From Anaerolineae bacterium (GTDB lineage: Bacteria > Chloroflexota > Anaerolineae > B4-G1 > SLSP01), in NCBI GenBank assembly GCA_026645815.1, contig JAPKMR010000001.1:1-64000 (forward strand): DNA of 64,000 bases, read 5' to 3'. The position numbers and the translations under genes are program-made. The stretch's first letter is position 1, and the number at the start of each line of letters is the position of its first letter. Shown in pieces: positions 15,596-55,153 of the stretch. The notes under the pieces were generated by a model. That model was not told where the DNA came from. It ran no database searches and was given only the letters and a program-made list of their open reading frames with translations.

Positions 15596-15620
15596 GTTCA
15601 AAGGTCAGATTGGTGAGACC

Positions 15621-15796: not shown

Positions 15797-15805
15797 TGGT
15801 ACAAT
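15797..15805 (+). promoter_or_regulatory. extended -10 promoter of the DUF1385 gene
   Basis: TGG-TACAAT lies 35 bases before the GTG start; no good -35 is present. The leader holds a doubled AAGAGGAC sequence that includes the ribosome-binding site. Confidence 0.5.
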
Positions 15806-15840
15806 GGGCACATTAGACAAGAGGACAAGAGGACAAAAAA

Positions 15841-16746: not shown

Positions 16747-16930
16747 GTCAGGGTGATTTGCCGGCTATTCAGGCTAGACTTTCTTCTATACGGGTGATTC
16801 TCTGCCGTCTGTCAGGTTTGCTTTCGCCGGACCGAGTCGGCAAATTCGTAACGCCTCAAATAGAGTACCTTACAACAAATAATCTACTCTATACCCGTTA
16901 AATGGCGCTTTCGTAGAATAGAACCCAAGA

Positions 16931-16936
16931 TACAAT
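16931..16936 (+). promoter_or_regulatory. -10 element directly in front of the histidine kinase
   Basis: TACAAT ends six bases before the first ATG (16943) and no Shine-Dalgarno lies between them. Transcription would therefore begin at or next to that ATG, giving either a leaderless message or a 45-base leader for the alternative ATG at 16988. Confidence 0.4.
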
Positions 16937-16942
16937 AATCTC

Positions 16943-19162: not shown

Positions 19163-19169
19163 CGCGCCT

Positions 19170-25345: not shown

Positions 25346-26644
25346 TTAGAAGGCTGCATCGGCGGGCATGCCGGGTTTGAGTGCTCCGTCGGGATTCTCC
25401 AAACGAATCCGCACCGCATAGAAGGTATTGAGGCGCTCCTCAGCCGTCGCAACGTTGCGCGGCGTGAATTCTGGCTCATCGGCAATGCGCAGCACCTGCC
25501 CCGAAAAGTCACGCCCGGGATAAGCATCCACAGTCACCCGCACCGTCTGCCCAGGCTGTACCGCGCCAATACGGTTTTCCGGCACATAGACCTCCAGGAT
25601 GACATCACTGAGATCCGCGATGGTCAGAATGGTCGCTGCCGGGGCTGCAAGCTCTCCCACACGCGAAACCTTAGTGACCACCACACCATTGATGGGACTG
25701 ATGAGCGTGCATTTCGCTACCTTCACCCGTAGGACATTTGCCTCGGCCTCAGCTTGACGCACTTTGGCTTCAGCGACCGCCAGTTCTTCTGGCGTAGGCC
25801 CAGCGAGCAGGTCCTCCAGTTTCGCCTGCGCCACGAGGACGCCGGTCTCAGCCGCACGGAGTTTTCCTTGGGCAGCATTCGCCTGAACCTGATAGCCCAG
25901 CGGATTCTGTCGAATCGCCAGCAGCTGCGATAGGAGCGTCTTTGCAGTGCGCTCATCCGCCTGCGCAGCTGCCAGAGCTGCCTGCGCCGCGCGCAATTCC
26001 CAATCCGTGGCACGCTGCCGGTCATAGCGGTATTGCACGTTCCGTAAATCCGAGTCAGCCTTCGCCACACCCTGAGCAGCCAGCGCCACCTGCGTCCGCG
26101 CCGTAACAATCTGCGTTTCCAATTCCTGCGGATGCTCCACCTGCGCGAGCGCTTCTTCCAAAGCACGTTGCGCACCATCGCGTTCAGATTCAGCCAGCGC
26201 TACCGCTGCCCGGACAGCAGCAATCTCCGCCGGGTGTGCGCCCGCACGTAATGCCTCCAGATCCGCTTGTGCCACTGCCACCCCCGCTTCAGCAGGTCCA
26301 AGTTGCAACTCCCAAGGTGTGGCATCCAACTGCACCAGCACATCGCCCACCTGCACCGTCTGCCCGAGTTGCACAGGCATCCCCACCAAACGCCCGCCGA
26401 GTTCGGTAGCGATGCGCACCTCGGTCGCCCGAATCGTTCCCGAGGCTGTAAGCGCCTCATCAGAAACGCTCCCCAAGTTGCCCACACAACCGGTGAGCAA
26501 CAGCGCGGCAAGCACTACCAAAACAAGCGGCAACCCGAAGAACATAGAGCGTCGTCTGCTCGTCACAATTCGGGAGCGGATAATCATCAAGCAGTAGGAC
26601 GTGCTTGTGGCGCCAAAGGGTTTGTTGCGGTAGAATCGTTTCAT
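25346..26644 (-). CDS. membrane fusion protein of ABC efflux system (lipoprotein type)
   Basis: This HlyD-family adaptor (432 aa) has a long basic N terminus, a hydrophobic stretch with lipobox LLTGCVG, a split biotinyl-lipoyl domain (AATELGGRLVGMPVQLGQTV-like and SPINGVVVTKVSRVGELAAP), a long alanine-rich coiled coil between the halves, and a beta-barrel ending DGALKPGMPADAAF. It would link the ABC exporter to the cell exterior. The ATG at 26644 has GGAGGAA five bases upstream. It is last in the efflux operon and is a homologue of the gene before it. Confidence 0.85.
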   Translation of the reverse strand: MKRFYRNKPFGATSTSYCLMIIRSRIVTSRRRSMFFGLPLVLVVLAALLLTGCVGNLGSVSDEALTASGTIRATEVRIATELGGRLVGMPVQLGQTVQVGDVLVQLDATPWELQLGPAEAGVAVAQADLEALRAGAHPAEIAAVRAAVALAESERDGAQRALEEALAQVEHPQELETQIVTARTQVALAAQGVAKADSDLRNVQYRYDRQRATDWELRAAQAALAAAQADERTAKTLLSQLLAIRQNPLGYQVQANAAQGKLRAAETGVLVAQAKLEDLLAGPTPEELAVAEAKVRQAEAEANVLRVKVAKCTLISPINGVVVTKVSRVGELAAPAATILTIADLSDVILEVYVPENRIGAVQPGQTVRVTVDAYPGRDFSGQVLRIADEPEFTPRNVATAEERLNTFYAVRIRLENPDGALKPGMPADAAF

Positions 26645-35979: not shown

Positions 35980-35988
35980 TGGTATACT
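35980..35988 (+). promoter_or_regulatory. extended -10 promoter of the cyclase-TPR gene
   Basis: TGG-TATACT has no recognisable -35. Its position rules out the in-frame TTG at 35988 as the start codon of the gene. Confidence 0.5.
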
Positions 35989-36053
35989 TGAACCGGAGTA
36001 TTTTCAACTCTGCGGCGTGGTTTTCAAAGACAACCATCACAGCGGGAGCAAAC

Positions 36054-39000
36054 ATGGAACAGCATCGCGAGAGCGAGACCATTCAAGCAGCCATCCTCGC
36101 GTTGGAACGCCAACGCAAACCCCTGGGCAATGCCATCGTGGATGCTGCTGTACTCGCCCTGCGCGAAAAGCTCGCCCGGCTCAAGGAACCTCTCCCTGCC
36201 GCAGAGAAACGTAAGCAAATCACGGTGCTCTTCGCAGACATCACCGACTTCACGCGCCTCTCCGAAAGTCTGGATGCCGAGGAAGTCACCGAATTACTGA
36301 ACCTGCTCTGGCAACACATTGACCGGCTCATTCTGCAGCGCGGGGGACGCATTGATAAGCACATGGGCGATGCCGTGATGGCATTCTGGGGGGCCGACCA
36401 GGCCCGCGAGGATGATGCCGAACAAGCCATCCGCACAGCCCTGGAGATCAAAGCCCTGATCCAGGAATTGCGCTCGCAGATCACCACGCCGATCCCACTC
36501 GACCTGTGCATCGGCATCAGCACGGGGCCTGTAGTGCTGGGAACGCTGAGCACCACAGGAGAGTACACGGCGATCGGGCCTACGGTGAATCTGGCGTACC
36601 GGTTGGAAGGCGTCGCGCCGGTTGGCGGCATCCTGATCTCACAAGACACCTATCAACACGTGCGAAACTTGTTTCAGAGCCATGCACTGCCCCCGCTCAA
36701 CCTCAAAGGCTTTGCCGACCTGATGCAGGCTTACCAGATTGTCGAGGCGCACCCGCAAGCCTACCAACGTGAGGCGCGCGGCATCGAGGGAATCACCCCA
36801 CAAATGGTCGGGCGACAGGCAGAGCTGGAACGGTTACAGACAGCGTATCAAGCCGCCAACACAGAGCGGCGTGCCCAAGTCATCTCCATCACAGGCGAGG
36901 CGGGTATCGGGAAATCGCGCCTGGTGCAGGAATTTGAGAACTGGACTCTGCAGCTGAACCCGCCCGCGCAGCGCTTCAAGAGCCGGGCGCGCCAGGAAAC
37001 GCAAGCGCTTCCCTATGCGATGTTGCGCGATATGCTCAGCTGGCGCTTTGGGATCTACGAAAATGACCGCAGCGCCACCGTCAGGAGCAAACTGGAAAAA
37101 GGCATCGGTGAATGCCTGGCAGATCCAGAACTTGCCACAGGCCAGGCGCACACCATTGGAGGCTTGCTGGGCTTTGGCATTGGGGATAGCCCCTACCTGG
37201 AGAGACTGCAAAACGACCCCGAACAACTGTACCACCGGGCAACCCTTGCTCTGCTAGAGTTCTTCAAGACAGCTTGTAGCCCCAACCCGCTGCTACTGGT
37301 GCTGGAAGACCTGCACTGGGCCGATAGCAGCTCGCTGCAGCTGCTCAACTGGCTCATCCATGCGCTTGCCGAAACCCCACTGCTGGTCATCAGTATCACT
37401 CGCACGGGAGAGGAAGAGGTCCCCCTGCAGCTTGACTCTTTGCCAGTACAACATCTGCCCCTAAAGCCGCTCGACCAGCAAGAAAGCCGGCGCCTGATCG
37501 CTGCCATCTTGAGCAGGATGCCCACTGTCCCGCTAGCATTGGAAGAATTGATCATCAACAAGGCGCAGGGCAACCCCTTCTACATCGAGGAGCTCATTCA
37601 AAGCCTCATTGAAAACCGCATCATTCTCAGAACGACGCCGCAATGGCAGGTGGACCCCAGTCGCCTGGTCGCCCTCAATGTACCACAGACGCTCACAGGG
37701 CTGCTACAAGCCCGCTTCGATGCCCTGCCCAAAGCCATGCAGGAGACCCTGCGACAGGCTGCCGTGATCGGTCCCCTTTTCTGGACCGCGGCAGTCCAGG
37801 CACTGCAAGTCGAGGCATCGGCAGGCGAAGCATCGGCGACCGGAGCGCAGGTAACCGAAAATCTCGGGCAAACAACATCTACCGGAAACAGAGAGGACTG
37901 CGCAGCGATTCTGGAATTGCTGGCACAGCGCGGCATCCTCATACGCCATCCAGACTCAACGTTTGTGGGTACCCAAGAATATGCCTTCCGGCATGTGCTG
38001 ATGCACGAAGTGGTCTACGAGAGCACACTGCACCGGTTGCGGCGCGCCTATCACGCTCGCGCTGCAAGATGGTTTAGCTCGCACAATGAAGAACGTGCCG
38101 GAGACCTTTCTGGATGGGTGGCTGAACACTTGCTCAACGCCGGAGCCAGGATTGAAGCCATCGCCGCGCTCCTGCAAGCCGGGCAACAAGCAGCAGCGCG
38201 TTTTGCGAATGAGCAAGCCATCGAGTATTTCACCCGCGCACTCACACTCACGCAGGATAGCGACAGTGAGCAACGGTATGCGTTATACCTGGCATTGGAA
38301 GCTACCTTTGAGGCCACTAGCGACAGCCGCGCACAACAACAGGCCCTTGTCACATTGGAGGGTCTCGTGGAAAGGCTAGATGACGACCACCGCCGCCTTG
38401 AAGTCGCACTGCGGCAAGCGCTATCCTCCGAAGCCACGGGAGCCTACCCCTCAGCCATTGCTGCTGCCAAACGCGCCATCACGCTGGCGCAAATGCTCCA
38501 ACTGCCCTGCAAGGAAGCGGAAGGGCAGTTGCTCTGGGGACGCGCGCTCACCCGTCAGGGACACTATGCGATGGCACAACAGCAGTTCGAGCAAGCGAGT
38601 GCGCTGTTGCAAACACTCGACCAATCAACAATCCAGTGCGACGGGACGACGGCAAGCCAAAGGCAAAAAGTCCTCGCTGATATCAATCGCGCACTGGGGG
38701 TGGTCCACTGGTATCAGGGGCAATACGACTTAGCCCGAACCTGCTATGAAACAGCCCTGCAACTCTACCGGGAAGTTTCTCACACTCGCGGCGAAGCCCA
38801 GTGTCTGAACAACCTGGGTGTGCTCGTCTCGGATAGCGCCCCTGATGAGGGATTAAACTTTCACCGGCAGGCGCTGGCGAAATACCGCGAGATCGGCAAT
38901 CGCTCCGGCGAGGGTAGCGCGCTGAGCAATATCGCCAGCTTATTGGTGACCCGTGGTGAGTTGGACACCGCACACACTGCTTATCTGCAGGCGCTGGAAT

Positions 39001-39848
39001 TGCGCCGCGCCGCAAAAGATCGCTGGGCTGAAACAGTGGTTCTAAGCAACCTGGGAGAGATCGCGCTCCAGCGAGGGCAGCTCGAGGAAGCGCGGAGCTA
39101 CTTTGAACAGAGTTCGCAGCTCAATCACGAAATTGGCAATCGCCAGGGCGTGGGCGGCAATCTCGGCAACCTCGGCGTAACCGCACTACAACGTGGGGAT
39201 TATGCCGCTGCAAGCGAGCTGCTGGAGAAGGCTCTTGAAAGCGCTAGAGAATTGGGACTACGACGCGCCGAATGTGATATCCTGTTGGCATTATGCCAGC
39301 TGCGCCATGAGCGTGGTGAGCTCCGGTTGGCGCACGAGGTTGGCGAACAGGCACTCCAAATTGCGCAAGAGTTGGACCATCGCGCTACTGAAGCAGAGGC
39401 GCTGATTGAGCTGGGCTACATCCGCCAGCATCTAGGTGAGGCCAAACTGGCAGGCGCCGATTTCCAAAAAGCTCTGGACATCCAACGCGGAATGGGGCAG
39501 TATCACCTGACCCTGAAAAGCCGCGCTGCATTAGCCCAGCTGGCACTGGAGCAAGGCACGACGCCAGGCGCGCTGACAATGGCACAGAAACACGCAGAGG
39601 ATATCTGGCATGCCTTGCAGAACCAGATGCTGAGCAACACGGATAGCGCGGCGCGGATTTATCTTGCCTGCTACCGGGTATTTGCAGCTTCGGAGGATGA
39701 ACGAGCAGACCTGGTACTCGAACAAGCCTATCAGCTGTTGCAGGGGCGCGCTGCAGGGCTGCAGAATGAGAATGACCGCAGACATTTCCTGGAAGCCATA
39801 CCTGCCAACCGGGATATTGTGATTGCCTGGCATAAACGCCATCCGTGA
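36054..39848 (+). CDS. class III cyclase-AAA ATPase-TPR signalling protein
   Basis: A 1264-residue soluble protein. Residues 50-225 form a class III nucleotide cyclase domain with both metal aspartates (FADITDFT and KHMGDAVMAFW) and the transition-state Asn/Arg in NLAYRLE, so it is likely active. An AAA/STAND ATPase follows with Walker A GEAGIGKSRL and Walker B LLLVLEDLHWAD. The C-terminal 550 residues are TPR repeats (for example LNNLGVLVSD, LSNLGEIALQRGQLEEARSY). The ATG at 36054 has GGGAG upstream. The layout resembles MalT/AfsR-like STAND regulators but with a cyclase output and no DNA-binding domain. Confidence 0.9.
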   Translation: MEQHRESETIQAAILALERQRKPLGNAIVDAAVLALREKLARLKEPLPAAEKRKQITVLFADITDFTRLSESLDAEEVTELLNLLWQHIDRLILQRGGRIDKHMGDAVMAFWGADQAREDDAEQAIRTALEIKALIQELRSQITTPIPLDLCIGISTGPVVLGTLSTTGEYTAIGPTVNLAYRLEGVAPVGGILISQDTYQHVRNLFQSHALPPLNLKGFADLMQAYQIVEAHPQAYQREARGIEGITPQMVGRQAELERLQTAYQAANTERRAQVISITGEAGIGKSRLVQEFENWTLQLNPPAQRFKSRARQETQALPYAMLRDMLSWRFGIYENDRSATVRSKLEKGIGECLADPELATGQAHTIGGLLGFGIGDSPYLERLQNDPEQLYHRATLALLEFFKTACSPNPLLLVLEDLHWADSSSLQLLNWLIHALAETPLLVISITRTGEEEVPLQLDSLPVQHLPLKPLDQQESRRLIAAILSRMPTVPLALEELIINKAQGNPFYIEELIQSLIENRIILRTTPQWQVDPSRLVALNVPQTLTGLLQARFDALPKAMQETLRQAAVIGPLFWTAAVQALQVEASAGEASATGAQVTENLGQTTSTGNREDCAAILELLAQRGILIRHPDSTFVGTQEYAFRHVLMHEVVYESTLHRLRRAYHARAARWFSSHNEERAGDLSGWVAEHLLNAGARIEAIAALLQAGQQAAARFANEQAIEYFTRALTLTQDSDSEQRYALYLALEATFEATSDSRAQQQALVTLEGLVERLDDDHRRLEVALRQALSSEATGAYPSAIAAAKRAITLAQMLQLPCKEAEGQLLWGRALTRQGHYAMAQQQFEQASALLQTLDQSTIQCDGTTASQRQKVLADINRALGVVHWYQGQYDLARTCYETALQLYREVSHTRGEAQCLNNLGVLVSDSAPDEGLNFHRQALAKYREIGNRSGEGSALSNIASLLVTRGELDTAHTAYLQALELRRAAKDRWAETVVLSNLGEIALQRGQLEEARSYFEQSSQLNHEIGNRQGVGGNLGNLGVTALQRGDYAAASELLEKALESARELGLRRAECDILLALCQLRHERGELRLAHEVGEQALQIAQELDHRATEAEALIELGYIRQHLGEAKLAGADFQKALDIQRGMGQYHLTLKSRAALAQLALEQGTTPGALTMAQKHAEDIWHALQNQMLSNTDSAARIYLACYRVFAASEDERADLVLEQAYQLLQGRAAGLQNENDRRHFLEAIPANRDIVIAWHKRHP

Positions 39849-42341: not shown

Positions 42342-43604
42342 TTATTCGTAACGCAATGCCTCAATAGGGTTCAAACTCGCAGCACGGTTAGCAGGATAAA
42401 TGCCGAAGAAGAGCCCGGTTGCCAAGGCAAAGCTGACCGCGAGAATGACAGAACCGCTGGTAACCACGGCGGTGACCACACCAGTAAGGCTCGCGGCGGA
42501 GGCAATCGCCCAGCCCAAGCCAATCCCAAACAAGCCGCCCAGACCACTCAACAGAATGGCTTCCATGAGGAATTGAAGCAGAATGTCGCCCTTGCGCGCC
42601 CCAAGCGCCTTGCGTAAACCGATCTCGTGGGTGCGCTCGGTGACGGAGACGAGCATGATATTCATGATACCGATACCGCCGACGAAGAGGGAAATCCCGG
42701 CGATGGCGCCGAGGAAAGCGGTGAGCGTGCTGGTGATGCTGGTCGCCATCTCCAGTATTGCCGCCTGATTGGTGATGTTGAAATCCGCGTCATCCTCAAC
42801 TTCTAAATCGTGCGCCTCACGCAGCGTGGCATCAATCTGCGTCTCCGCAGCGTCTACGAGCTCCTCTGACTTCGCCATGATGTTGATCCGGCTCACGCGC
42901 AGTGCGCCGACCGAGTTGCGCGCGTTGAAGAGCTTGGTCTGCGCGGTGGAGATGGGCACGAAGACACTGCTATCGGCGCTGTTCAACATCGAACCACCCT
43001 GTTCTGCCAGCACTCCGATCACGGTGAGAGTGGTCTTGGAACCCGTTGCGTCGGCAAGCTTGATTTTCTGTCCTACGGGGTTGAAATCGCCGAAAAGCTC
43101 ATCGGCAATGGTCGCGCCAAGCACGACGACCTTGGAACGCTTATCCACATCCGCCTCGGTAATGAATGCGCCACGCGCCAGCGTGAGCTCATGGAGGTCC
43201 AGATACTCCGGTGGCACACCGGAGACGGTGGCATTGAGATTGACATCGCCATAGACCAACTGCCCGTTGCCATCATACTGCGGCACGACCATCGCCGCCG
43301 CCGACACATTGTTGGAGTCGGCAAGGGCTTCGACGTCGTCCATGGTGACCCCCATCGAACCGCCGCCGGGACCGCCAATCCGCCCGAATCCACCTGAGGT
43401 GACGATGAGCATGTTGGTGCCGATGCTATTGATTTCCTGCGTAATCGAAGCCTGCGCGCCGTTACCGATAGACATGAGCGCAATCACCGCGGCGACGCCA
43501 ATGATAACACCCAGCATCGTAAGCAGCGAGCGCATCTTGTTCGCCAGTAACCCGTCCAGCGCCACTTTGATATTCTCCAATAAATCCGCAAATTGTGTGA
43601 GCAT
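42342..43604 (-). CDS. MacB-type ABC transporter permease
   Basis: A 420-residue FtsX/MacB-family permease: N-terminal helix in LTMLGVIIGVAAVIALMSIG, a large periplasmic domain with GTNMLIVTSGG, and three C-terminal helices with the conserved TERTHEIGLRKALGARKGDI. It lacks a fused ATPase; that is the separate gene before it. GAGGAAG precedes the ATG. It is last in a four-gene unit (two adaptors, ATPase, permease). Such systems export lipopeptides, antimicrobial peptides or other amphipathic substrates. Confidence 0.92.
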   Translation of the reverse strand: MLTQFADLLENIKVALDGLLANKMRSLLTMLGVIIGVAAVIALMSIGNGAQASITQEINSIGTNMLIVTSGGFGRIGGPGGGSMGVTMDDVEALADSNNVSAAAMVVPQYDGNGQLVYGDVNLNATVSGVPPEYLDLHELTLARGAFITEADVDKRSKVVVLGATIADELFGDFNPVGQKIKLADATGSKTTLTVIGVLAEQGGSMLNSADSSVFVPISTAQTKLFNARNSVGALRVSRINIMAKSEELVDAAETQIDATLREAHDLEVEDDADFNITNQAAILEMATSITSTLTAFLGAIAGISLFVGGIGIMNIMLVSVTERTHEIGLRKALGARKGDILLQFLMEAILLSGLGGLFGIGLGWAIASAASLTGVVTAVVTSGSVILAVSFALATGLFFGIYPANRAASLNPIEALRYE

Positions 43605-43643
43605 ACGCTTCCTCTCTTAATCCTGCCGTCTGCGATGGCGCGG

Positions 43644-44327
43644 TTATTCGACAATCAAACCATCTTTGAGATGGATGATCCGCTCAGCCTCGTTTGCCAG
43701 GCTCTGGTCGTGGGTCACCATCACGATGGTCATGCCCTGCTCACTATGAAGACGGTGCAGGATTTCCATGATTTCGGCGCCGGAGGTAGAATCCAGGTTA
43801 CCGGTTGGCTCGTCCGCCATCAAAATCTGTGGTTCGTTAACGAGAGCGCGCGCAATAGCCACCCGCTGTCGCTGCCCGCCGGAGAGCTCAGAAGGGCGGT
43901 GCTCCATACGATCCACCAACCCCACTTCCGACAAGGCCTTTTCGGCGCGGCGCCGACGTTCGGCTGGCGGCACGCGATTGCCGTTGCGACTGTATTGCAG
44001 GGGCAACATCACCTGCTTGCGGGCAGTAGCGCGCGCTAGCAGGTTGAAGGATTGGAAGACAAAACCGATCTCGCGATTCCGCACTTGTGCCAGTTCGTTT
44101 TCGCGCATGCGGCTGACATCCATACCATTAAGAACGTAAGTCCCTTCGGTTGGCGTATCCAGGCAGCTGATGAGGTGCATCAGCGTAGATTTTCCCGAAC
44201 CCGAAGGGCCCATAACCGCCACCCACTCACCCTTTTCAATCTTGAGAGAGACGCCGCGCAGCGCATGCACCTGAACCTGCCCCATCAAATACACCTTGGT
44301 TATTGCCGTCACTTCAATCAGGCTCAT
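43644..44327 (-). CDS. MacB/LolD-type ABC transporter ATPase
   Basis: A 227-residue ATPase with Walker [10 protein letters not shown], signature LSGGQRQR, Walker [14 protein letters not shown] and switch His in MVTHDQSL. The [10 protein letters not shown] and [10 protein letters not shown] motifs are typical of the LolD/MacB/FtsE class. GGGAGG overlaps the end of the preceding adaptor gene, whose stop is one base before the ATG. It powers the adjacent permease. Confidence 0.93.
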
Positions 44328-44328
44328 C

Positions 44329-45735
44329 TTAACGCCTCCCCCCTAGGAGCGCACCCATGCCGGGGAACTGCATCCCATTGCCATTCTCCGCCTCCCCATC
44401 CGCCGCCGCAACTTCGATCACGACGCCAACGACATCGCCTTCAGCCAGACCGGAGAGAATCTCCACGTTTCCTGCCAGGCTCCGCCCCAACGTCACCGGT
44501 GTGGTGACGAATTCACCCGAATCTGTCTGCTGCATCACGTAGGCAGCATCGCCATCCAGAAGCACCGCGCGCTGCGGCAGGTAGAGCACATCCGCCAATA
44601 CTTCGGTAATCACTTCCACATCAGCGGACATGCCCACGCGTACCCGCTCCGGAATCTGTTGCAGCTGCACGGTCACCGGGTAGAGCGGGACACCGGATTG
44701 CAGTGTCGCGACGGGCGCAATCGCCGTCACCGTGCCCGGCAGGGCTGCGTCGTCCACAGCGCTCACACTCACCCGCGCGGTTTCCCCCACCGCCACCAGG
44801 GTGATATCAGATTCGTCGAGAATGAACTTGACCTCAAGCGTCGCCAAATCCGCCAACGTGACCGCTACGCCGGAAGCTGCTTCTCCCGACGCAACGTTCA
44901 CCGCGGTGACGACGCCAGCGAAGGGCGCGACGAGCGTCGCCGCCTCGAGGTTGCGACGCGCCTGATCCAGCGATAGCTGCACCTGTTGCACCTTGAGCTC
45001 CGCGGCGGTCACTGTGTCCGCGTCGGGTCCGGCAAGCAAAGCGTCGAGGCTAGCTTGCGCCTGTTCGACCTGGCTCCACGCGGAGATGATGCTGCTACTG
45101 GCGGGTCCCGAGGCGGCAATCTCATAGGCGAGTTTCGCCGCTTCATACGCCATCGTAGCATCCTGAAGCGAGACTGCCATTCTTTCGCCATAGCGATCAT
45201 AATTGCCTTGCGCCTGCTGTACTTTCTTCGCTGCCAGTTCCATATTGCCCTTGAGTTGGGTGAGCTGCTGTTCAGAGGTGCCTTCTTTGGCTCGGACATA
45301 GCTGGCTTGGGCAGCACTCAAAGCCGCCTCGGCTTTGGCGATTTCAGCCGCTGTAGCCGGTTCGAGTACCTGCGCCAGCTGAATCTGCGCCTGTTCCAGG
45401 CTCAGCTCGGCTTTTGCGACAGACAGCTCAAGGTTAGTGGTGTCCAGACGCGCGAGAGGCTGCCCCTCGGTCACGATGTCGCCGACCGCGACCCATACCT
45501 CAGCGACCTGCCCGGAGCTGCCAAATGCCAGCGATTGCTCCTGCGCCGCCGCGAGGTTGCCGCTACCCTCAATCGAATCCTGCAACGCGCCGCGCGTCAC
45601 CAAGACGAGCTCGGTGACCTGCTCGGTGGCGGTCGTTTGCACAGCACCGGGCTGGAGGTAGGTGGTGTAGATCCAGATTCCAGCCGCTCCGAGAGCGGCT
45701 AAGACTAAAATAAGTACCCACCAGGCTTTTTTCAT
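44329..45735 (-). CDS. membrane fusion protein (MacA-like adaptor)
   Basis: A 468-residue adaptor anchored by one N-terminal helix, with lipoyl halves GSSGQVAEVWVAVGDIVTEG and VAPFAGVVTAVNVASGEAAS, a coiled coil with several Ala/Gln-rich heptads, and a beta-barrel with RVGMSADVEV. AGGAG precedes the ATG. It is the second adaptor of this operon and is directly coupled to the ATPase gene. Confidence 0.88.
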   Translation of the reverse strand: MKKAWWVLILVLAALGAAGIWIYTTYLQPGAVQTTATEQVTELVLVTRGALQDSIEGSGNLAAAQEQSLAFGSSGQVAEVWVAVGDIVTEGQPLARLDTTNLELSVAKAELSLEQAQIQLAQVLEPATAAEIAKAEAALSAAQASYVRAKEGTSEQQLTQLKGNMELAAKKVQQAQGNYDRYGERMAVSLQDATMAYEAAKLAYEIAASGPASSSIISAWSQVEQAQASLDALLAGPDADTVTAAELKVQQVQLSLDQARRNLEAATLVAPFAGVVTAVNVASGEAASGVAVTLADLATLEVKFILDESDITLVAVGETARVSVSAVDDAALPGTVTAIAPVATLQSGVPLYPVTVQLQQIPERVRVGMSADVEVITEVLADVLYLPQRAVLLDGDAAYVMQQTDSGEFVTTPVTLGRSLAGNVEILSGLAEGDVVGVVIEVAAADGEAENGNGMQFPGMGALLGGRR

Positions 45736-45777
45736 TTTGAACTCCTGATATTATGATGAAGGAAGAAAATGTATGGT

Positions 45778-45818
45778 GGTTTTTGCGCATCGCAGCGGTA
45801 CTGCGATGCGCAAAAACC
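45778..45818. terminator. hairpin between the two adaptor genes
   Basis: An 18-bp perfect stem (45778-45795 with 45801-45818, loop CGGTA) with A5 and T5 runs at its base lies inside the apparent operon. It may act as a partial terminator that sets the ratio of the first adaptor to the downstream genes. Confidence 0.6.
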
Positions 45819-45832
45819 GCCGGTAGAATCAC

Positions 45833-47455
45833 TCAAGGTTGAGGGGCGCCGCCACCTGGGGCACCGCCCATGCCAGGAAGCAGCATCCTCCCGCCGCCAA
45901 AGAGGGGCTCGAAGCCCTCTTCAGCCGTGGTGACGGTACTCAGGCTGATCACGTCACCCTCTTCCAAACCGCTGAGGACGATGACCTCGCTACTGGTTTG
46001 CGCGCCGAGCTCGACAAGCACCGGCACGAAGCCGCCCGTGCTCAGCTGCTGCCGGAAACCTCCGCCGGCGGTTGGGGTACCGTTCGATCCCCGGCGCCCT
46101 AGCTTTGCCCCATTTCCCGGTTGCTGGGCGTTCTGCCCGGTTTCCGGTTGCGACGGCTGTTGCCATACACCGCCCATGCCTTGCGCCATCGCCGATTCCA
46201 TCATCTCACCTTCGCGCAGCTGGCGCAATACGATGGTCCGTCCGGCAAAGGTCTGCACGGCATTCAAGGGAATCAGCAGCGCATCCTCGACGTTCACCGT
46301 GACAATCTCGACATCGGCGGTCATGCCGATGCGCACCGCCGCGCCAGTCGGGTCGAGCGCCACCTTGACCGGATACAACGCCACCCCGGATTGAACCGTG
46401 GCTACGGGCGCCACCGTGACCACGACACCGGAGAGTGTCAGGTCATCAAAGGCATCCAGGGTAATCGTGGCGGCTTGCCCGGTGCTCACTTGCACAACAT
46501 CGTTCTCATCCAGGGTAATCTCCACTTCCAGTGCATCCAGGTCGCCGAGTACCACGGCGGTTCCAGAGGCGTTACCGCCCACCTCGATATTCACCGACGT
46601 CACCGTGCCGGCAATGGGCGCCTCCAGGGTCGCCTGAGTCAATGCTCGCTGCGCCTTCTGCAGATCCAGCTGTGCCTGCTCCACCGAGATTTCTGCCAGG
46701 CGCAGCGTATTGGTGGTGACGCTAGTCTGTAAGGCGTCGAGGTTGGCTTGCGCTTGCTGCACCTTTGCCCAAGCCGTCCAGCGTTCGGTATCTGTACCGC
46801 CCGCGACCAGGGTGTTATAGGAAGCGAGCTCAGTTTCGTAGTTGAGCTGTGCTTGCCACAAGCTGGTGGCAGTGTTGGAATACTCCACCTCAATGCGCCA
46901 ACCGCCGCCCGCGCGGTCGTAGGATGCCTGCGCTGATTCTAGCGCCAGCTTAACTTCTTCAAGCCCAAGCTGTGCCTGCGCGAGCTCGGCGGCGCTGGGC
47001 TTCAACTCGTTATACGCAACCTGAGCGCTTTTAAGCGATGCTTCCGCCGCAGCAAGGTCCGTGGTATCGGGACCCTCGCGCGTCTGCGCTAGCTGGAGCT
47101 CCGCCTGGGTGAGGTTGATCTGCGCCTGCTTAACGGCGTCTTCCAGGTCTTGAGTTTCAAGACGCGCCAGGGGTTGACCTGCCTGCACCGTATCGCCGGC
47201 GACAACCAGCACTTCCGCCACTTTGCCGCCAGAATCAAACGCCAGATTAAGAGAGGTCACTGAAGCAATATTGCCGCTCCCTTCCACAGTACCGCGCAGG
47301 GCGCCACGGGTCACAACGGCTGTCTGCATCGTGGTTTCCGAAGCAGCAGTGCTTGCTATAGCATCGGCGGTGCGGTTTTGGTGCCATTGCCAACCAGCAT
47401 AGCCTGCGCCAACGAGCACGAACAATAACGGGATAAATACCCACTTTTTCTTCAT
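45833..47455 (-). CDS. membrane fusion protein, larger adaptor with Gly-rich tail
   Basis: A 540-residue MacA-like adaptor: N-terminal helix, lipoyl halves DSGGKVAEVLVVAGDTVQAG and EAPIAGTVTSVNIEVGGNAS, coiled coil, beta-barrel with RIGMTADVEI, then a Gln/Gly-rich low-complexity insert (around residues 435-480) and a tail ending LPGMGGAPGGGAPQP. The ATG at 47455 has AGGAGGT six bases upstream; a longer reading frame upstream covers the intergenic promoter region and is rejected. It is the first gene of the MacAB-like unit, divergent from the giant-protein pair. Confidence 0.87.
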   Translation of the reverse strand: MKKKWVFIPLLFVLVGAGYAGWQWHQNRTADAIASTAASETTMQTAVVTRGALRGTVEGSGNIASVTSLNLAFDSGGKVAEVLVVAGDTVQAGQPLARLETQDLEDAVKQAQINLTQAELQLAQTREGPDTTDLAAAEASLKSAQVAYNELKPSAAELAQAQLGLEEVKLALESAQASYDRAGGGWRIEVEYSNTATSLWQAQLNYETELASYNTLVAGGTDTERWTAWAKVQQAQANLDALQTSVTTNTLRLAEISVEQAQLDLQKAQRALTQATLEAPIAGTVTSVNIEVGGNASGTAVVLGDLDALEVEITLDENDVVQVSTGQAATITLDAFDDLTLSGVVVTVAPVATVQSGVALYPVKVALDPTGAAVRIGMTADVEIVTVNVEDALLIPLNAVQTFAGRTIVLRQLREGEMMESAMAQGMGGVWQQPSQPETGQNAQQPGNGAKLGRRGSNGTPTAGGGFRQQLSTGGFVPVLVELGAQTSSEVIVLSGLEEGDVISLSTVTTAEEGFEPLFGGGRMLLPGMGGAPGGGAPQP

Positions 47456-47625
47456 AAACCTACCTCCTGAGGAATCAAATAGATAATAACGCACAATTAT
47501 GAAGAAAGTGTGAAGATTGGGGAGGAAGATACTGAACGGGGTTTCTGGCAGTTTCGGTGAGGCTTTTGCGACACAATCGAAATTTGCGTCGCAGAGAATC
47601 ACAGAAATCCCTAATAGTCCAGATA

Positions 47626-47653
47626 TTGACTTTTGAAATTGGCATTGTATACT
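47626..47653 (+). promoter_or_regulatory. sigma-70-type promoter of the giant-protein pair
   Basis: TTGACT (-35) and TATACT (-10) are separated by 16 bases. The start near 47660 leaves a 220-base leader in which I see no named RNA element. The rest of the 47456-47879 spacer contains no gene. Confidence 0.75.
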
Positions 47654-47879
47654 GAAATAGAGTTGTAAATCTAAGCTTGCAGGACCCCAGAGCCCCACCT
47701 CCACCCGGATGCGTAGCTCTTGCCGGACCCGCACTTGCTTGCTGTGCCAACGCTCGATTTCCTGACACCTATTCCACTCATGTCCAGCGCGTGTTGACCA
47801 GCGAATCACCGACTACGCGTGATCCCACCTTGGTCCGTGACACAACCTATCGCTGCATGACACAATAACTGGAGGGGCT

Positions 47880-50819
47880 ATGGCTAATGAGATTCCCGCG
47901 CCCGTTGCCGTACTGCGCTCAGATGACCTGTTGCTGGTGCGTTTCCATTTCCATGGGCTGACGTTGCAGGAATTGCCTGGGTTAGGACAACCTGCGCAGT
48001 TGATCAAGGCTCCCCGTGCTGATACCTCCATCATCGTGGTGGAGTTCCCGCCGCAGAGCATCGGTGAGGAAGCGTTCTTCGAGTCGCCCTCCCCTCCCAT
48101 TCCACCACCCACAGGCGACCCGGCGCCTTCCGACGCGAACGAGACACCTACGTTTCCAGTGCGCGCGTTCGTAAGCGGTCCCACGTGGCTGGTTTTCCAG
48201 GTTTCCACCACACCCCCCATTCCATATACTCTCGCCGGGATTTTCGCCGCCTGCGTGAACGGCACACAGGTGGTCGCCACGAGCAGGAAACAGCCACCCG
48301 AAACCCTCCATAGCCTGGGAGAGTATCTGCAAATGGGAAGGCTTTTCAGCCGCATTGAAGCGCCCTATCACCTCGTGCTCTCACCCGAAACCGGGACAAC
48401 ATGGCTTGGGCAAGTAGCGCCCACCTTCAACGCAACAGACACGCGCGCAGCGCTGTGGCACGTGACGATGCAGGGTAAGAAACTGCGCGCAGTATGGGCT
48501 ACAGATTTCCAAGATTGGCCCTCCGATGCCAACGCGCCGAATCCCAATAATTTGCCGTTCCGCATGTCGTTGGATAGCGCCGACCGCTACGAGCTGGTGC
48601 GGTTGACGACGGATAGCGGCGCCTACGCTCGCCCAGTGGAAGCGGACCAACTGCTGCTCAGTGCACTGGGCGCGTGGCTCAAGGTCGCCGGCAAGTGGGA
48701 ACCTCCTTCAAATCTGAATGTCACCGAGTGGAAACACCTGATGACGATGGGGCGGGATCATTTCGTGCGTGTCGTCCGCAAGGGCTACCTGTTCCCCTTC
48801 GGTCACGAAGCCGCATTGGTCAAAATCACGGAGCGCAAGACCCAGGCTGTGCCCTCCGGCGGAGGCAGGCGCGCCGCCTATCTCCGCACACGGTTGTTCG
48901 TCATCGTGCGCCAACCGGTTCGCGAGGGTTACACTCACAACGGTTTCCCATTCACCCGTGTAACTTTGAAAACACTGATCACACCCGATATCAATCCTCC
49001 AGAACAGAGCGAGCTGGTCGCCAGTTTTAACGCCAACGGCTTCTGGATCCGTTCGGGAGGGGGGCATGTGAAATTCCAGGTCGTCGCCAGGGATTCTGTG
49101 GGACGAGAGATCGAATTCGTGACGCCGCTGGCGTTTGTTGCCAACAGCAAAGCCTGCGACCCCACAGAGGTGCAGAAAATCATCGAGGATGCGTGGAAAC
49201 CCCCGCCCAGTCCCAAGGTGGCGCGTCCCTCGCCCAAGGTCACACTCGGCGGGCAAGCGCTGGCTTTTATGCCAGAGGCAAATCCAGGCGATACAACATT
49301 GGAAGCTAAGAGTCTCAATCTGGGCGCAAGGACCCACAGCAGCGGTGAACCACGCTTTTTGCCGATGGTGGTGGAAGCCGAAGTGGATGTTCCCATCATC
49401 AAGCAGCTGGTGGGCGGCGCCGCCCAATGGACAACAATCGAGTATGAACAGACCTTTGTCAAGGCAGACCCGGGCAAATTCGCCTCGGGCACGGATAAGA
49501 ATCCCGCTGCCATCTTTGCGCGCGTGAAATCCGCCGCCACCCCACAAATCGCCTTCTCCCCAGAACAGGGCGGTGGGCTTGCCCGCCCCAATTTCTCCAT
49601 CGAGGGGCTTTCGCGCGATCTAGGACCGGTGCCCACCGTTGATGCGATGATGACGGGCAGTTTCGATCCCGCGACCATCTTTCCCGAGATCACGCTGCTT
49701 GGGGGGCTCAAACTGACCGATATCGTCAATCTGGTGCGCTTCGGCGGCGCGCCGGAGAAGGGTGAGCTGCTTCCGCAGCTGGTCACCACGCTGGAAGGCG
49801 ACGTGCCGATCACCCGTTATCGCTGGCATCTGCTCAAGACGATCGCAGATGACCCTACGAAGCCAGATGAATCGCGCGGGGAACTGCGCGACACGGGTCT
49901 GTTCCTCTCCGACATAGGCGCAGAGTTCGAGATTATTTCTGAGGTACGCCGTCCACCCAACGGTGCGCCCTCGTTCATGTCGCAGGGGCGACTCAGCCGT
50001 TTCCACCTGGTACTGCTCCCCGGAATGGAGCTAGTGGACCTGGCTTTCGATTCCGTTACCTTCACAAGCCGCTCCGGGCAGAAGCTTGATGTAGCGGTTG
50101 TGCTGAAGGAAATCACTTTCCTCGGACCGCTCAGCTTTGTCAACGCGCTGATGCAGGTGGTGCCGCTAGACGGTTTCGCCGACCCACCCTATCTGAATAT
50201 TGACACAAAGGGAGTAGGCTTAGGCTACACGCTGGCCATTCCGAGCGTGGGCATCGGGGTTTTCTCGCTGCAGAACCTCAGCCTTTCCGCCGAGTTCTAC
50301 CTGCCGTTCGTCAATGAATCGGTCAGCATGACGCTGGCATTCTGCACCCGCGAGAATCCGGGGCAGGTATTGGTGAGCCTGTTCGGCGGCGGTATCTTCT
50401 TCGGCATCACGTTGACTACCAACGGGGTGCAACTGGTCGAGATGGCGCTGGAGTTCGGGGCGGGCATCAGCCTAAACCTGGGTGTCGCCAGCGGGTCGGT
50501 CACCGTGATGGGCGGCGTGTACTTCCAAAAATCCGGCGAAGGTGCGTTGCTCTCAGCCTACATCCGCATGGTGGGCAAACTGAGCGTGCTGGGGCTGATT
50601 TCCGTAACCGTGGAATTCTACCTAGGGTTGAATTACGAACCCTCACCGATTGATATGCTCTCCGGCGATGCCTCGCTGAAAGTGAAGGTAAAAATCGCCT
50701 TCTTCAGCAAAACGGTCTCGTTGACAGTACACCGGGAGTTCAAGGGTAGCGACCCCACCTTCCGCGATGTGCTGGCGCCGCCAGATTGGCAAACCTATTG
50801 CAACGCCTTTGGAGATTGA
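47880..50819 (+). CDS. giant protein of unknown function, 979 aa
   Basis: I do not recognise this protein. It has no signal peptide and no membrane helix at the N terminus, so it is probably cytoplasmic. The first 700 residues are a mixture of beta-rich segments with many prolines. From about residue 750 to 945 there is a nearly continuous run of alternating hydrophobic/polar strands (for example LGYTLAIPSVGIGVFSLQNL, FFGITLTTNGVQLVEMALEF, SGSVTVMGGVYFQKSGEG), as in beta-solenoids, lipid-transfer grooves or barrels. The C terminus is DWQTYCNAFGD. GGAGGGG precedes the ATG. The next gene starts three bases after the stop, so the products probably act together. Confidence 0.6.
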   Translation: MANEIPAPVAVLRSDDLLLVRFHFHGLTLQELPGLGQPAQLIKAPRADTSIIVVEFPPQSIGEEAFFESPSPPIPPPTGDPAPSDANETPTFPVRAFVSGPTWLVFQVSTTPPIPYTLAGIFAACVNGTQVVATSRKQPPETLHSLGEYLQMGRLFSRIEAPYHLVLSPETGTTWLGQVAPTFNATDTRAALWHVTMQGKKLRAVWATDFQDWPSDANAPNPNNLPFRMSLDSADRYELVRLTTDSGAYARPVEADQLLLSALGAWLKVAGKWEPPSNLNVTEWKHLMTMGRDHFVRVVRKGYLFPFGHEAALVKITERKTQAVPSGGGRRAAYLRTRLFVIVRQPVREGYTHNGFPFTRVTLKTLITPDINPPEQSELVASFNANGFWIRSGGGHVKFQVVARDSVGREIEFVTPLAFVANSKACDPTEVQKIIEDAWKPPPSPKVARPSPKVTLGGQALAFMPEANPGDTTLEAKSLNLGARTHSSGEPRFLPMVVEAEVDVPIIKQLVGGAAQWTTIEYEQTFVKADPGKFASGTDKNPAAIFARVKSAATPQIAFSPEQGGGLARPNFSIEGLSRDLGPVPTVDAMMTGSFDPATIFPEITLLGGLKLTDIVNLVRFGGAPEKGELLPQLVTTLEGDVPITRYRWHLLKTIADDPTKPDESRGELRDTGLFLSDIGAEFEIISEVRRPPNGAPSFMSQGRLSRFHLVLLPGMELVDLAFDSVTFTSRSGQKLDVAVVLKEITFLGPLSFVNALMQVVPLDGFADPPYLNIDTKGVGLGYTLAIPSVGIGVFSLQNLSLSAEFYLPFVNESVSMTLAFCTRENPGQVLVSLFGGGIFFGITLTTNGVQLVEMALEFGAGISLNLGVASGSVTVMGGVYFQKSGEGALLSAYIRMVGKLSVLGLISVTVEFYLGLNYEPSPIDMLSGDASLKVKVKIAFFSKTVSLTVHREFKGSDPTFRDVLAPPDWQTYCNAFGD

Positions 50820-50822
50820 GCC

Positions 50823-53800
50823 ATGAAAAAGACCACCATCACCTTTACGTCCCTACCCTATCGCGCGACCGGCACCCCCGGCGTCGATGGGAAACTGCAG
50901 ATTTCGGTATTCATCGCTCCGAGGCTCTGGATCACAGACTCTGAGGAGCAGACTCAGATTCTGCATCTGAAAGACTACCCCCCGTTGTTCAAGAATTTCC
51001 CAAACAAGGTTGCCGCATTGAAGTTCGGGGTGAGCTTCAACGGGGGGGCGCCACTGCCCGCCACGCCGGTCAGTGCAGGTGACCTGCGCGATGATCTGTG
51101 GGCGGCGCTCTTTCCGCAGACAATCCCGGTCAAGCCATATCGCTTCGACAATCTGGCAGAGATTCCTATCCAATCCATTGATTCGATTTTTCTCTACGAT
51201 TGGCTACGCGACCTTTACCGCAAGGTGGGTACCGATCCCGCTTACGGCTTAGGCGCCAGCAAACCCTCGCGCGATATCTTGCTACGTGACCCCGACCTGG
51301 CGCAAATCGCGCGTCCCAGCAAACCTGAACCACCCTATGAACCGCCCGCCAAACGCCGCGTGCCAATCTATTACCAACCAGGAGCTACCGGGGAAGAAGA
51401 AGGAACCGAGAAGAAAGGCTGTCTGCAGCTGCTCCTGGATGTGCTCAACGCCATCACCAAAGCGTTGGGGTTGGGACAGCCCTTCCATGCTTCGGCAGCC
51501 AATCAGGCGACAGCCCCCCAACCGCCGGCATTGCACCCCACACTCCCGCCCACAGGAGCAAACATCACCCCGCCAGCACCGCTCCAGGTCAAACCGCAAG
51601 CAGGGAGACCCGCCGTTCCCACCGGCGGCACACAGGCAACCAATCCCGTCATGGCAGCATTCAATGCAGTCACGGATTTCGTGACACCCTTCGATCCGGC
51701 GCCCACACCGGCGGTGCATCTCTCTGATGAGCAACTGGAAGCGCTGCTGGATTTTCATGAGGCAGTATCGCTGTTGGCGGATACCCCCACCCTGCTGCGT
51801 GCGCTGGGGTTGGTGGTGGACCTGGAAGTGGATTGGGCTCCCGGAGTCCCGGCGGAGGGAACAGTAGCCGTCACAATCACGCCGCCCTCGGTAGCAGGCG
51901 CCGTCTTCTACCCGTTGCGAACTCACTACACGCTCTCCGGCACGCATTTCCTGCCCGCACCGCGCACGCCCAAACCCAAAGAAACGGCAGAAATGCGCCA
52001 GGGGCTGTTGCGCCTCAGCGACGAAGAACGCTATCGCATCATTCAGCTCGATGTGGTGGGCGCCGCGCTCAAGGAACAAAACACCGCGACCCTCCTCGCG
52101 TCGCAACAAGTTCAGGGCTTGCAGCTCATCAACCCGCCGGAGGAGGAATCGCTCCCGGCGACCCGCAGCGCAGGGCTTGCCATCGTCCAGCGCGATCTGG
52201 CGACCCAGCTCCAAACTACCTACGTGCAAGCGGCGGCGCTGAACAACGCCGTGGCAGATGTGGATGGGTCGCCAGAGGTTACCCTCTCCACAACGCCCGC
52301 GCAACTACAGCCCACTAACGAACTCTGGGCTGAGGATGTCATCCGCGGTTATCGCATGGATGTACGCGACCTGGATAGCGTCAGCAAGAAATGGCGTTCG
52401 CTGCACCAGCGCCAGGGGACCTGCCGTTTCACCGGGGTGCACCCCGAGATTGCCGTCCCGGTGGAGGATGAGGGTTTCGTGGAGCTGGGCGTGACAGAGC
52501 CTGTGAGCGACCCACCCGACGTACAGCGGATTCCTGACACCATCGTAACGTGGACCGGTTGGAGCCTCAGCGCCGTGCGCCCTGGCAAAACTATCGGGGA
52601 GAACCCTGAGCCCAGCGAGGCCGCGGAGACCCCCACCAACGAAGCGAAGACCGCGTTCAAACTGCAAGTTGATTTCACCCCCGTCAGCGGGTCACTGCCG
52701 CGACTGCGCTTCGGGCACCGCTACGTGGTGCGCATGCGCACGGTAGACCTGGCAGGTAACAGTGTCTTCGGTCCCGCGGACGCCGAATTCCAGCAGGCGC
52801 ACCCGGATGACAGCGAGATCCACGTCTACCGCCGCTTCGAACCGGTACCGGCGCCCGCGGTGGTACTCCGCGAGAAACCGGTCGAGGGTGAATCGGTGGA
52901 GCGCCTGGTGCTGCGCAGCGCCGCCGGTAGCGCCGACCCCCATCACGTAAACCGGCAGGTGACTGAGCGGCACATCGTCCCGCCCAAGAGTTCGCAGTTG
53001 CTGGCAGAGCATCACGGCAAGTTCGATGGCAACGGGGGCAAGCCAAAAGCCGATGCTGCGACGTATGAACAGGCGGCGCTCGAAGCTAACACGCTCTCGC
53101 AGCGCTGGGCGCCGATCAACAACAAATGGGTGCTGCTGCCGCTCCCCGGCACAGAGACGTTCCCGGACGCGGAAGAGCGCAAGGACCCGACCTTCTGGCA
53201 GACCAAAGAGGCCTTCCCATTGACCTACCTGCCCGATGAGCTGGCGCGCCGGGCGGTGTTCCACAATCTACCCGGTCCGGCAGAAGGCGTGACCTCCAGC
53301 TACCCCTTCAACGGCGAATGGCTCTCCCGGCTACCGTTCCGGCTCAAAGTGGTGGGCATCCCGGCAGGGCAAACACCCAATGCACCCGTATGGGCTCCGC
53401 AGAAGGGCGAGCTGGTGGTAGAGCTGCCGCAGGGCGAGAGCCGCGTGGTCCGCTTGAATAGCGGCACGGACGAGAGCGATCTTCCGGAATTGGGCGTGTG
53501 GGAATGGGAGACCAATCCCCCGGCGCCCACCCATGCCACCATTGCGTCGAACACGGCGCTGGGGCTCAATTGGCTATTGATGCCCCCACGCGAGATGCAC
53601 CTGATACACGCGACCCAGAAGCCATTGGAGCTGCCGAAGATAACCATCACCAAAGCCGAGAAAGCCCTGGGGGATACGACCGCCGCGGTCAGCGGCAGCA
53701 TCCAACCGCATAGCCAGACCACGGGCAAAGTGGATGTACTGGCATTGTGGACGGACCCGGAGGACGATATCGCCAAAGATGCCCCCGGCGAGCACAGAAG

Positions 53801-55055
53801 CCGCGCCACCCTGTGTGAAATCCACGTACCCGAGCCTGACGCGACCTCCGTCGCAGTCAAAACGACGCACAGCCTGGGGGACACGCACTACCACCGCGTG
53901 GTCTATGTAGCGCGCGGCGCCACCCGCTTCCGGGAGTATATGCCCGAGGCGCTACTGGCGCCCGACAAAGAAGACCTGATCACGGCGCCCACAGGAGTAG
54001 AGATCAAGACGCTGGCGAGCAAGACCCTGGCACAAATCGAAGGCGAGATTGCCGGGGGAACGTTGCGGCATGCCGCAGTGCAGGATGTGAAGAACTCCGC
54101 CCGACCGCTGGCGCCCGTGATAGCATATATCATGCCCACGTTGGGCGCCGCGATCGAGACGCCCGTAGAGCAGACCGCCAAGGTGAAGGTCATCACCCGG
54201 ACGCGGCACAACAGCGGTTTGCGCGTCTACCTGGAGCGCCCGTGGTTCTCCTCCGGCGCGGGTGAATTGTTGGGGGTAGTGTTCCGCGATGAGACCTTTG
54301 CGACACTGGATGAAGCCCTGCGACCTTACGTGACCGAGTGGGCTGATGACCCGCTGTGGAACGGTCCGGTCGCCGACCTGGCAGCTGGCATCGGGAATTT
54401 CACCCATTATGCCGCCAGTTCAAACGATGTCATTGCCCCGTTGACGCTGGAGGAAACCAATGCCCCCGTGAAAGTCGTGGGCTACCCGGTTGAATTTGAT
54501 GCCGCTAAAAAACTGTGGTTTGCGGATATCGAATTCACCATGAACAGCTTGAAAGCCTATATGCCGATGGTGCGATTGGCACTAGCACGCTTCCAGCCCA
54601 TCTCGGTGCCGCCTACGTATCTTTCGCGTGTAACCCGCGCCGATTTCGTCCAACCGCTTCCGGACCGGACGCTGACCATCAGCCGCCTGGTTTCCAACCC
54701 GATGCACATCACGATGGCGCTGACCGGCGTAGCGCCCTCCGGTCCACGACCGGTGCAAGCGTGGATGGAAAAACTGACGGCGCCCGCGCAGGGCGAGCTC
54801 GGCTGGACGCGGCTTGAAGGCGACGCCTTCAAGCCGGCGATCAACACAGAGAGCACCGCGCTGTGGGAAGGCACGTTCAATCCGGGACTGTTGCCGCCGA
54901 GTGGACGTTACCGCATGGTTATCCAGGAAATGGAGCCGTTGCTTCCAGGAGGCTTCGCTGGCACTCTGCCGGATGGTGGAGTTAGCGCTGACCTGCAGAT
55001 ATCCACCGGCCCAACCTTAGGACGGACGGTGTACGCCGACAGCTGGGAACTCTAG
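50823..55055 (+). CDS. giant protein of unknown function, 1410 aa
   Basis: I do not recognise this protein either. It has no signal sequence. The N-terminal 150 residues start with a compact domain (LQISVFIAPRLWI, YDWLRDLYRKVG), then comes a proline-rich linker (about 160-290), then a series of beta-rich, probably Ig/FN3-like modules, for example FGHRYVVRMRTVDLAGNSVF near residue 640 and THSLGDTHYHRVVYVARGAT near 1020. The end is RTVYADSWEL. No enzyme motif, Walker motif, metal-binding pattern or repeat is visible. The composition matches neighbouring genes, so recent transfer is not obvious. GGAGAT precedes the ATG. Confidence 0.6.
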   Translation: MKKTTITFTSLPYRATGTPGVDGKLQISVFIAPRLWITDSEEQTQILHLKDYPPLFKNFPNKVAALKFGVSFNGGAPLPATPVSAGDLRDDLWAALFPQTIPVKPYRFDNLAEIPIQSIDSIFLYDWLRDLYRKVGTDPAYGLGASKPSRDILLRDPDLAQIARPSKPEPPYEPPAKRRVPIYYQPGATGEEEGTEKKGCLQLLLDVLNAITKALGLGQPFHASAANQATAPQPPALHPTLPPTGANITPPAPLQVKPQAGRPAVPTGGTQATNPVMAAFNAVTDFVTPFDPAPTPAVHLSDEQLEALLDFHEAVSLLADTPTLLRALGLVVDLEVDWAPGVPAEGTVAVTITPPSVAGAVFYPLRTHYTLSGTHFLPAPRTPKPKETAEMRQGLLRLSDEERYRIIQLDVVGAALKEQNTATLLASQQVQGLQLINPPEEESLPATRSAGLAIVQRDLATQLQTTYVQAAALNNAVADVDGSPEVTLSTTPAQLQPTNELWAEDVIRGYRMDVRDLDSVSKKWRSLHQRQGTCRFTGVHPEIAVPVEDEGFVELGVTEPVSDPPDVQRIPDTIVTWTGWSLSAVRPGKTIGENPEPSEAAETPTNEAKTAFKLQVDFTPVSGSLPRLRFGHRYVVRMRTVDLAGNSVFGPADAEFQQAHPDDSEIHVYRRFEPVPAPAVVLREKPVEGESVERLVLRSAAGSADPHHVNRQVTERHIVPPKSSQLLAEHHGKFDGNGGKPKADAATYEQAALEANTLSQRWAPINNKWVLLPLPGTETFPDAEERKDPTFWQTKEAFPLTYLPDELARRAVFHNLPGPAEGVTSSYPFNGEWLSRLPFRLKVVGIPAGQTPNAPVWAPQKGELVVELPQGESRVVRLNSGTDESDLPELGVWEWETNPPAPTHATIASNTALGLNWLLMPPREMHLIHATQKPLELPKITITKAEKALGDTTAAVSGSIQPHSQTTGKVDVLALWTDPEDDIAKDAPGEHRSRATLCEIHVPEPDATSVAVKTTHSLGDTHYHRVVYVARGATRFREYMPEALLAPDKEDLITAPTGVEIKTLASKTLAQIEGEIAGGTLRHAAVQDVKNSARPLAPVIAYIMPTLGAAIETPVEQTAKVKVITRTRHNSGLRVYLERPWFSSGAGELLGVVFRDETFATLDEALRPYVTEWADDPLWNGPVADLAAGIGNFTHYAASSNDVIAPLTLEETNAPVKVVGYPVEFDAAKKLWFADIEFTMNSLKAYMPMVRLALARFQPISVPPTYLSRVTRADFVQPLPDRTLTISRLVSNPMHITMALTGVAPSGPRPVQAWMEKLTAPAQGELGWTRLEGDAFKPAINTESTALWEGTFNPGLLPPSGRYRMVIQEMEPLLPGGFAGTLPDGGVSADLQISTGPTLGRTVYADSWEL

Positions 55056-55077: not shown

Positions 55078-55112
55078 TTATGGTTGGGCACGCTCCGTGC
55101 GCCCAACCATAA
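55078..55112. terminator. bidirectional terminator hairpin
   Basis: TTATGGTTGGGC (55078-55089) pairs with GCCCAACCATAA (55101-55112), with a further ACG/CGT pairing inside after a two-base bulge. It lies between convergent genes. Confidence 0.65.
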
Positions 55113-55153
55113 GTGCGTGTTTTGCCTGCCAAGATGAAATGGTAAGCAAGAGG

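Follow-up and report, generated by a model that had tools for sequence, protein, structure and literature searches.

What two very large adjacent genes without a recognizable family contribute to a bacterial cell is the question raised by a locus in an Anaerolineae bacterium (Chloroflexota), within the first 64,000 nucleotides of contig JAPKMR010000001.1 (hereafter the window). The genes lie on the plus strand and encode proteins of 979 amino acids (aa) (P1, 106 kDa, 47880–50819) and 1410 aa (P2, 153 kDa, 50823–55055) with a gap of three bases, as an earlier sequence-only reading had described them. The best explanation, put forward tentatively as a whole, is a horizontally spread two-gene operon whose P1–P2 complex is assembled in the cytoplasm and handles a lipid or other hydrophobic ligand.

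The pairing of the two genes is the firmest part of this proposal. A profile-guided scan of GTDB species genomes gave 436 P2 relatives among 459 pattern matches, and the best 80 of the 436 were fetched. The fetched loci cover 15 phylum-level groups, including Chloroflexota, Pseudomonadota, Actinomycetota, Bacillota, Acidobacteriota, Armatimonadota, and Bacteroidota-related lineages, and both proteins are conserved at ~30–38% identity across some 15 such groups. With plasmid copies there are 89 P2 loci, four of which are cut off inside P2 where the contig begins. In the 85 that can be tested, P1 is found immediately upstream 84 times, mostly with gaps of −8 to +30 bases, and the sole exception (L086) has P1 elsewhere in the same genome. 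Among 400 genomes of the window's phylum, strong P1 matches number eleven in all and are present in all ten genomes with a strong P2 (Fisher p ~4e-19, uncorrected for kinship); a contig end truncates the eleventh, and two weaker matches to P1 are fragments. Furthermore, the tree of P1 runs parallel to that of P2 (Mantel r 0.81, p 0.001). It is near certain that the two genes belong together, as the sequence-only reading had supposed, and neither finding that it had named as refuting, a family match or a lack of co-occurrence, was obtained. A physical P1–P2 complex is quite likely, judging from the sequences. The P2 tree requires 30 phylum changes against a minimum of 14, as expected under horizontal transfer, and binning errors and paralogues also raise this count. 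The pair is rare among the close relatives of the window's organism (one of 59 others).

Searches for known families left both proteins unrecognized, as first described. The single window proteins had no family match in Pfam, NCBIfam, or PHROGs, and Pfam gave none at E-values up to 10. PADLOC gave no match for the pair, and searches of PDB sequences with single queries and deep profiles returned nothing significant for P1 or P2; one HmuY-like match at E 0.06 was disregarded. No whole-fold match for either protein was found by Foldseek against the PDB and viral models. Pfam searches of 16 P1 and 18 P2 homologues detected no shared domain, the matches being limited to low-complexity or coiled-coil segments in helical spacers and one marginal TAT_signal. 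Plasmid homologues, where annotated in RefSeq/GenBank, are labelled "hypothetical protein," and no account of the pair turned up in literature searches. Neither window protein has a Walker A motif or signal peptide, in agreement with the sequence-only reading, or a transmembrane helix (highest 19-residue Kyte–Doolittle mean, 1.6), and no conserved cysteine or metal motif was found in the pair.

Several specific candidates were rejected. For a phage or contractile particle protein, and with it the released particle suggested earlier, there was no PHROG match, no phage-genome match for P2, and no capsid or tail fold; a single IMG/VR viral contig (L123, 3300004093_000021) contains the pair, and its P2 is nearest to a Myxococcota copy, so that the contig is probably of bacterial origin or misclassified. 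The AsmA/VPS13/TamB groove superfamily was set aside because AsmA, chorein, and TamB domains are absent from the window proteins and the A1/A2 members, and transmembrane helices from the window copies. The absence of the vitellogenin N-terminal domain from the Pfam results argues against the large lipid transfer proteins (apoB, MTP, vitellogenin), and membership in the alpha-2-macroglobulin family is contradicted by the absence of A2M, bait-region, and thioester Pfam domains from all 18 P2 sequences. DUF6603 (PF20248) comprises giant, Gly-rich, beta-rich bacterial proteins to which no function has been assigned; their likeness to the pair was considered and was rejected by profile comparison (hhalign probability 0.4%, with a shallow DUF6603 alignment).

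The N-termini of P1 provide a clue to the cellular location. A canonical twin-arginine (Tat) signal, such as ISRRKFLSYAG or LSRRQVLGLAG, stands at the start of 33 of 72 full-length P1 homologues, compared with 22 of 707 neighbouring proteins (3%) and 0.7% of internal P1 segments (p 9e-24). P2 N-termini have Tat scores at background, and the matches listed for them are not real signals. A twin-arginine signal on one subunit alone is found with P1 of the 33 homologues and is missing from that of the window; along the P1 tree, the signal undergoes at least six changes of state. The signal on P1 and its absence from P2 point to folded export of a preassembled P1–P2 complex, and such export is likely in the signal-bearing lineages. 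Partners without a signal are known to be exported as hitchhikers in hydrogenases (PMC10924467) and in PaoABC (PMC4273604). In the simplest reading, P1 and P2 would fold jointly, while still in the cytoplasm, into a single large complex, and P2 would be exported as a hitchhiker on P1 wherever P1 has a Tat signal. The window P1 lacks a signal peptide; a Tat signal hidden before the annotated start was rejected because the reading frame is open for just 13 codons 5' of the ATG (a 992-aa open frame). In the absence of a signal, the window complex probably stays inside the cell; a cytoplasmic location is likely, although TatC is encoded in the host genome, and the complex would be kept there throughout the window's clade. 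The cytoplasmic particle of the sequence-only reading fits the window copy in its location, but about half of the homologues have a Tat signal.

The suggestion of a hydrophobic ligand arises from the structure of P1. Its AlphaFold2 model is fairly confident (predicted local distance difference test (pLDDT) score, 84.5) and shows a beta-rich core followed by a C-terminal strand domain. Alternating strands had been noticed here over about 200 residues; the strands are present, and the domain spans ~290 residues (664–957; 49869–50750, plus strand). It consists of 13 long amphipathic strands (mean length, 13.8 aa) with one strongly hydrophobic and one polar face. The moment z of these strands is 2.9, with a hydrophobic face of +2.0, compared with a moment z of 0.3 for the remaining P1 strands and 0.4 for P2 strands, which served as an internal control. 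The domain is closely preceded by a fixed site (~residues 626–646; 49755–49817, plus strand) at which other lineages have an amphipathic helical spacer of 117–165, ~255, or 650–956 aa; the window copy has ~20 aa at this site and no spacer. Many P1 homologues also have an extra N-terminal region of ~330–520 aa that the window P1 lacks; the P1 alignment (A3) contains 69 rows. P2 comprises an N-terminal domain, a variable linker (residues 170–310) that is Pro-rich as first noted (17% Pro, not conserved), and a region from 307 to 1410 modelled by AlphaFold2 as a row of beta-sandwich domains (pLDDT 85.6). Foldseek relates this region weakly to chains of several beta-sandwiches, among them alpha-2-macroglobulin and complement C5, with template modelling (TM) scores of ~0.1; the Ig/FN3-like modules proposed for P2 hold as multi-domain beta-sandwich similarity, and no closer level is supported.

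In the least certain step of the proposed mechanism, the one-sided hydrophobic sheet of P1, together with the helical spacer in some lineages, would shield a hydrophobic ligand, whether a lipid or another compound, with P2 as the docking multi-domain scaffold. The carrier of a hydrophobic ligand is taken as a working hypothesis, and the lipid-binding assembly of the sequence-only reading, which would suit the amphipathic sheet at the P1 C-terminus and the helical spacers, is retained in the same sense. Foldseek searches with P1 returned weak echoes of ushers, LptD, MTP, apoB, and P47/OrfX (TM <0.2), the last four of which all possess amphipathic sheets; for the large lipid transfer proteins, the matches to 6i7s and 9bdt were marginal (probability 0.04–0.15). 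Several points weigh against the best explanation as a whole. The lipid-related matches are marginal, most with E >0.02, and cover no whole domain, and the amphipathic sheet could be merely buried in a sandwich or barrel. No conserved lipid gene was found near the pair. Tat signals were assigned from their motif and not with SignalP, and about half of the P1 homologues, the window's included, have no export signal, so that an envelope role is not general.

Enlarged pairs occur on plasmids of Sinorhizobium, Rhizobium, Agrobacterium, and Ruegeria, with P1 of 2277–3311 aa and, in the four plasmid pairs with an uninterrupted P2, P2 of 1560–1899 aa; the annotation splits the giant P2 of Agrobacterium vitis into two genes. 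A Tat signal is present on each of the five giant plasmid P1 proteins. On plasmid pC of Sinorhizobium meliloti LMB1 (L029), where the signal-bearing P1 has 3052 aa, a 55-aa TatA/TatE-like gene (25697–25861) lies directly 3' of the giant pair. The P1 of Rhizobium ruizarguesonis TP23 is broken into two overlapping frames by a frameshift or an assembly error (L025, 14797–19120). The boldest conjecture, a doubtful one, is that Tat exports in one piece a giant two-protein carrier already assembled in the cytoplasm, with a hydrophobic ligand in the P1 C-terminal sheet; it would constitute an unnamed class of cell-envelope machine, whose plasmid form, at more than 4800 residues and in one case with a TatA of its own, would be among the largest folded Tat cargoes. 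If the Tat assignment is true, the giant plasmid pairs directly test the size limit of a folded complex moved by Tat and the need for a dedicated TatA.

No neighbouring gene of the pair is conserved beyond close-lineage synteny, which indicates a self-contained two-gene module. One or both of two extra genes adjoin the pair in seven Bacteroidota-related loci (L051, L067, L077, L081, L083, L113, and L114). One encodes a ~600-aa protein that, in the examples read, starts with a signal peptide, ends in tryptophan, and appears to resemble an outer-membrane barrel. The other encodes a secreted protein (Ig plus RCC1), with RCC1 repeats shown in three of the seven loci. These barrel-like and RCC1-propeller neighbours would support an envelope role in Bacteroidota-related lineages, in several of which the pair appears to cooperate with both proteins. 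Elsewhere, phospholipase genes (Tle1-like, patatin, and zinc-dependent phospholipase C) lie near the pair (L117, 13321–15693; L025, 24632–27145; L135, 6678–8480); a Tle1-like domain was present in two of the 128 nearest neighbours scanned, and the lipase genes seen close to a few loci count as anecdotal. Two plasmid copies (L030, 26696–31209; L134, 4474–8929) are located near dpdE/dpdF and genes for a WYL regulator, a DNA methylase, and a helicase/nuclease, in defence-island-like surroundings. In L119, a bacterial alpha-2-macroglobulin of ~1996 aa with Big_5 domains (13686–19676, minus strand) is convergent with the pair.

Three other explanations were weighed against the hydrophobic-ligand complex. 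The pair could form a structural or adhesive assembly, such as a surface coat, stalk, or scaffold, in which the beta-rich blocks of P1 and P2 bind no ligand and the helical spacer sets the reach. This is rather unlikely. The resemblance of P2 to alpha-2-macroglobulin and complement C5 chains, the discrete spacer length classes at one fixed site, and the adjoining barrel-like and RCC1 proteins of the Bacteroidota-related loci would fit such an assembly, whereas export by Tat instead of Sec is unusual for surface adhesins and many copies have no signal at all. Moreover, scattered W, R, D, and H residues are strongly conserved across phyla, which suits a precise machine and not a variable adhesin.

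The pair could instead be a two-component enzyme or cofactor protein that has to fold in the cytoplasm, like most Tat cargo, with a new active site built from conserved P1 residues such as W193-H194, W284-x-H286, R292-D293, and E318-R319. Folded cofactor enzymes are the usual cargo of Tat, and block 275–325 is among the most conserved of P1; this explanation is nevertheless unlikely given the lack of a conserved cysteine or metal motif, of a recurrent cofactor or maturation gene beside the pair, and of any enzyme fold match. A mobile conflict module on plasmids, acting in interbacterial antagonism or defence, is more improbable still: the patchy, transferred distribution, the carriage on plasmids, several of them conjugative, and the location of some copies near restriction/modification or Tle1-like and other phospholipase genes are as such a module would have them, but PADLOC gave no match, no nuclease or toxin domain and no recurrent immunity-like small gene were found, the nearest neighbours are diverse, and half of the members are Tat-exported.

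In the window, the P1 gene is preceded by an untranslated leader of ~220 bases (47660–47879, plus strand), as first reported, with a GGAGG Shine–Dalgarno sequence at its end, immediately 5' of the ATG. The strong promoter assigned to the locus corresponds to a sigma-70-like site, TTGACT-16-TATACT (47626–47653, plus strand; 10 of 12 matches). Both hexamers are identical in a relative that is 92% identical (L043), in which the neighbouring intergenic sequence has diverged; the scan alone is not significant, with four sites found and 2.3 expected by shuffling. The terminator hairpin placed at 55078 is a strong one (55078–55113, plus strand; 12-bp stem, −36.9 kcal/mol, z −6.1) between P2 and the rlmL-like gene, which converge. 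With no T-run immediately after it, the hairpin is terminator-like and not a textbook intrinsic terminator. The genes flanking the pair, for a HlyD/MacB-type transporter on one side and an RlmL methyltransferase on the other, look unrelated to it. The transporter genes (42342–47809, minus strand), divergent from P1, comprise a MacB-like permease, an ABC ATPase, and two consecutive HlyD-type adaptors. Farther away, the plus strand encodes a 1286-aa protein that combines a class III guanylate/adenylate cyclase domain with a STAND-type AAA ATPase and TPR repeats (35988–39848) and an M14 zinc carboxypeptidase with a C-terminal Ig-like/DUF7507-like region (33459–35858).

Proteins of ~1000 and ~1400 residues that are found only together in ~15 phylum-level groups, with no assigned family, fold, or function, represent a large annotation gap, and the module is open to study in laboratory organisms such as Cupriavidus metallidurans CH34, whose copy is signal-less, Streptomyces, and rhizobia.

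Comparison with known systems places the pair beside three of them. The long P1 strands with one strongly hydrophobic face, and the helices nearby in some lineages, are shared with lipid-carrying amphipathic-sheet proteins such as MTP, apoB, LptD, TULIP-type P47/OrfX, and the AsmA/VPS13 grooves; unlike these, P1 and P2 have no Pfam sequence match, membrane anchor, or whole-domain fold match (TM <0.2). P2, as a predicted row of beta-sandwich domains, finds its best Foldseek matches in alpha-2-macroglobulin and complement chains, from which it differs in the low TM score and the missing A2M, bait-region, and thioester domains. Tat hitchhiker complexes (NiFe hydrogenases, formate dehydrogenases, and PaoABC) also have a twin-arginine signal on one partner, adjacent genes, and preformed folded export, the last of which is presumed for P1–P2. 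In contrast to these complexes, the pair has no metal or cofactor motifs, many P1 proteins, including that of the window, lost or never had the signal, and the proteins are much larger (up to 3311 + 1899 aa). The searches tied the two proteins to no family, fold, or system already described, which makes the pair new, and its export route is of a known kind.

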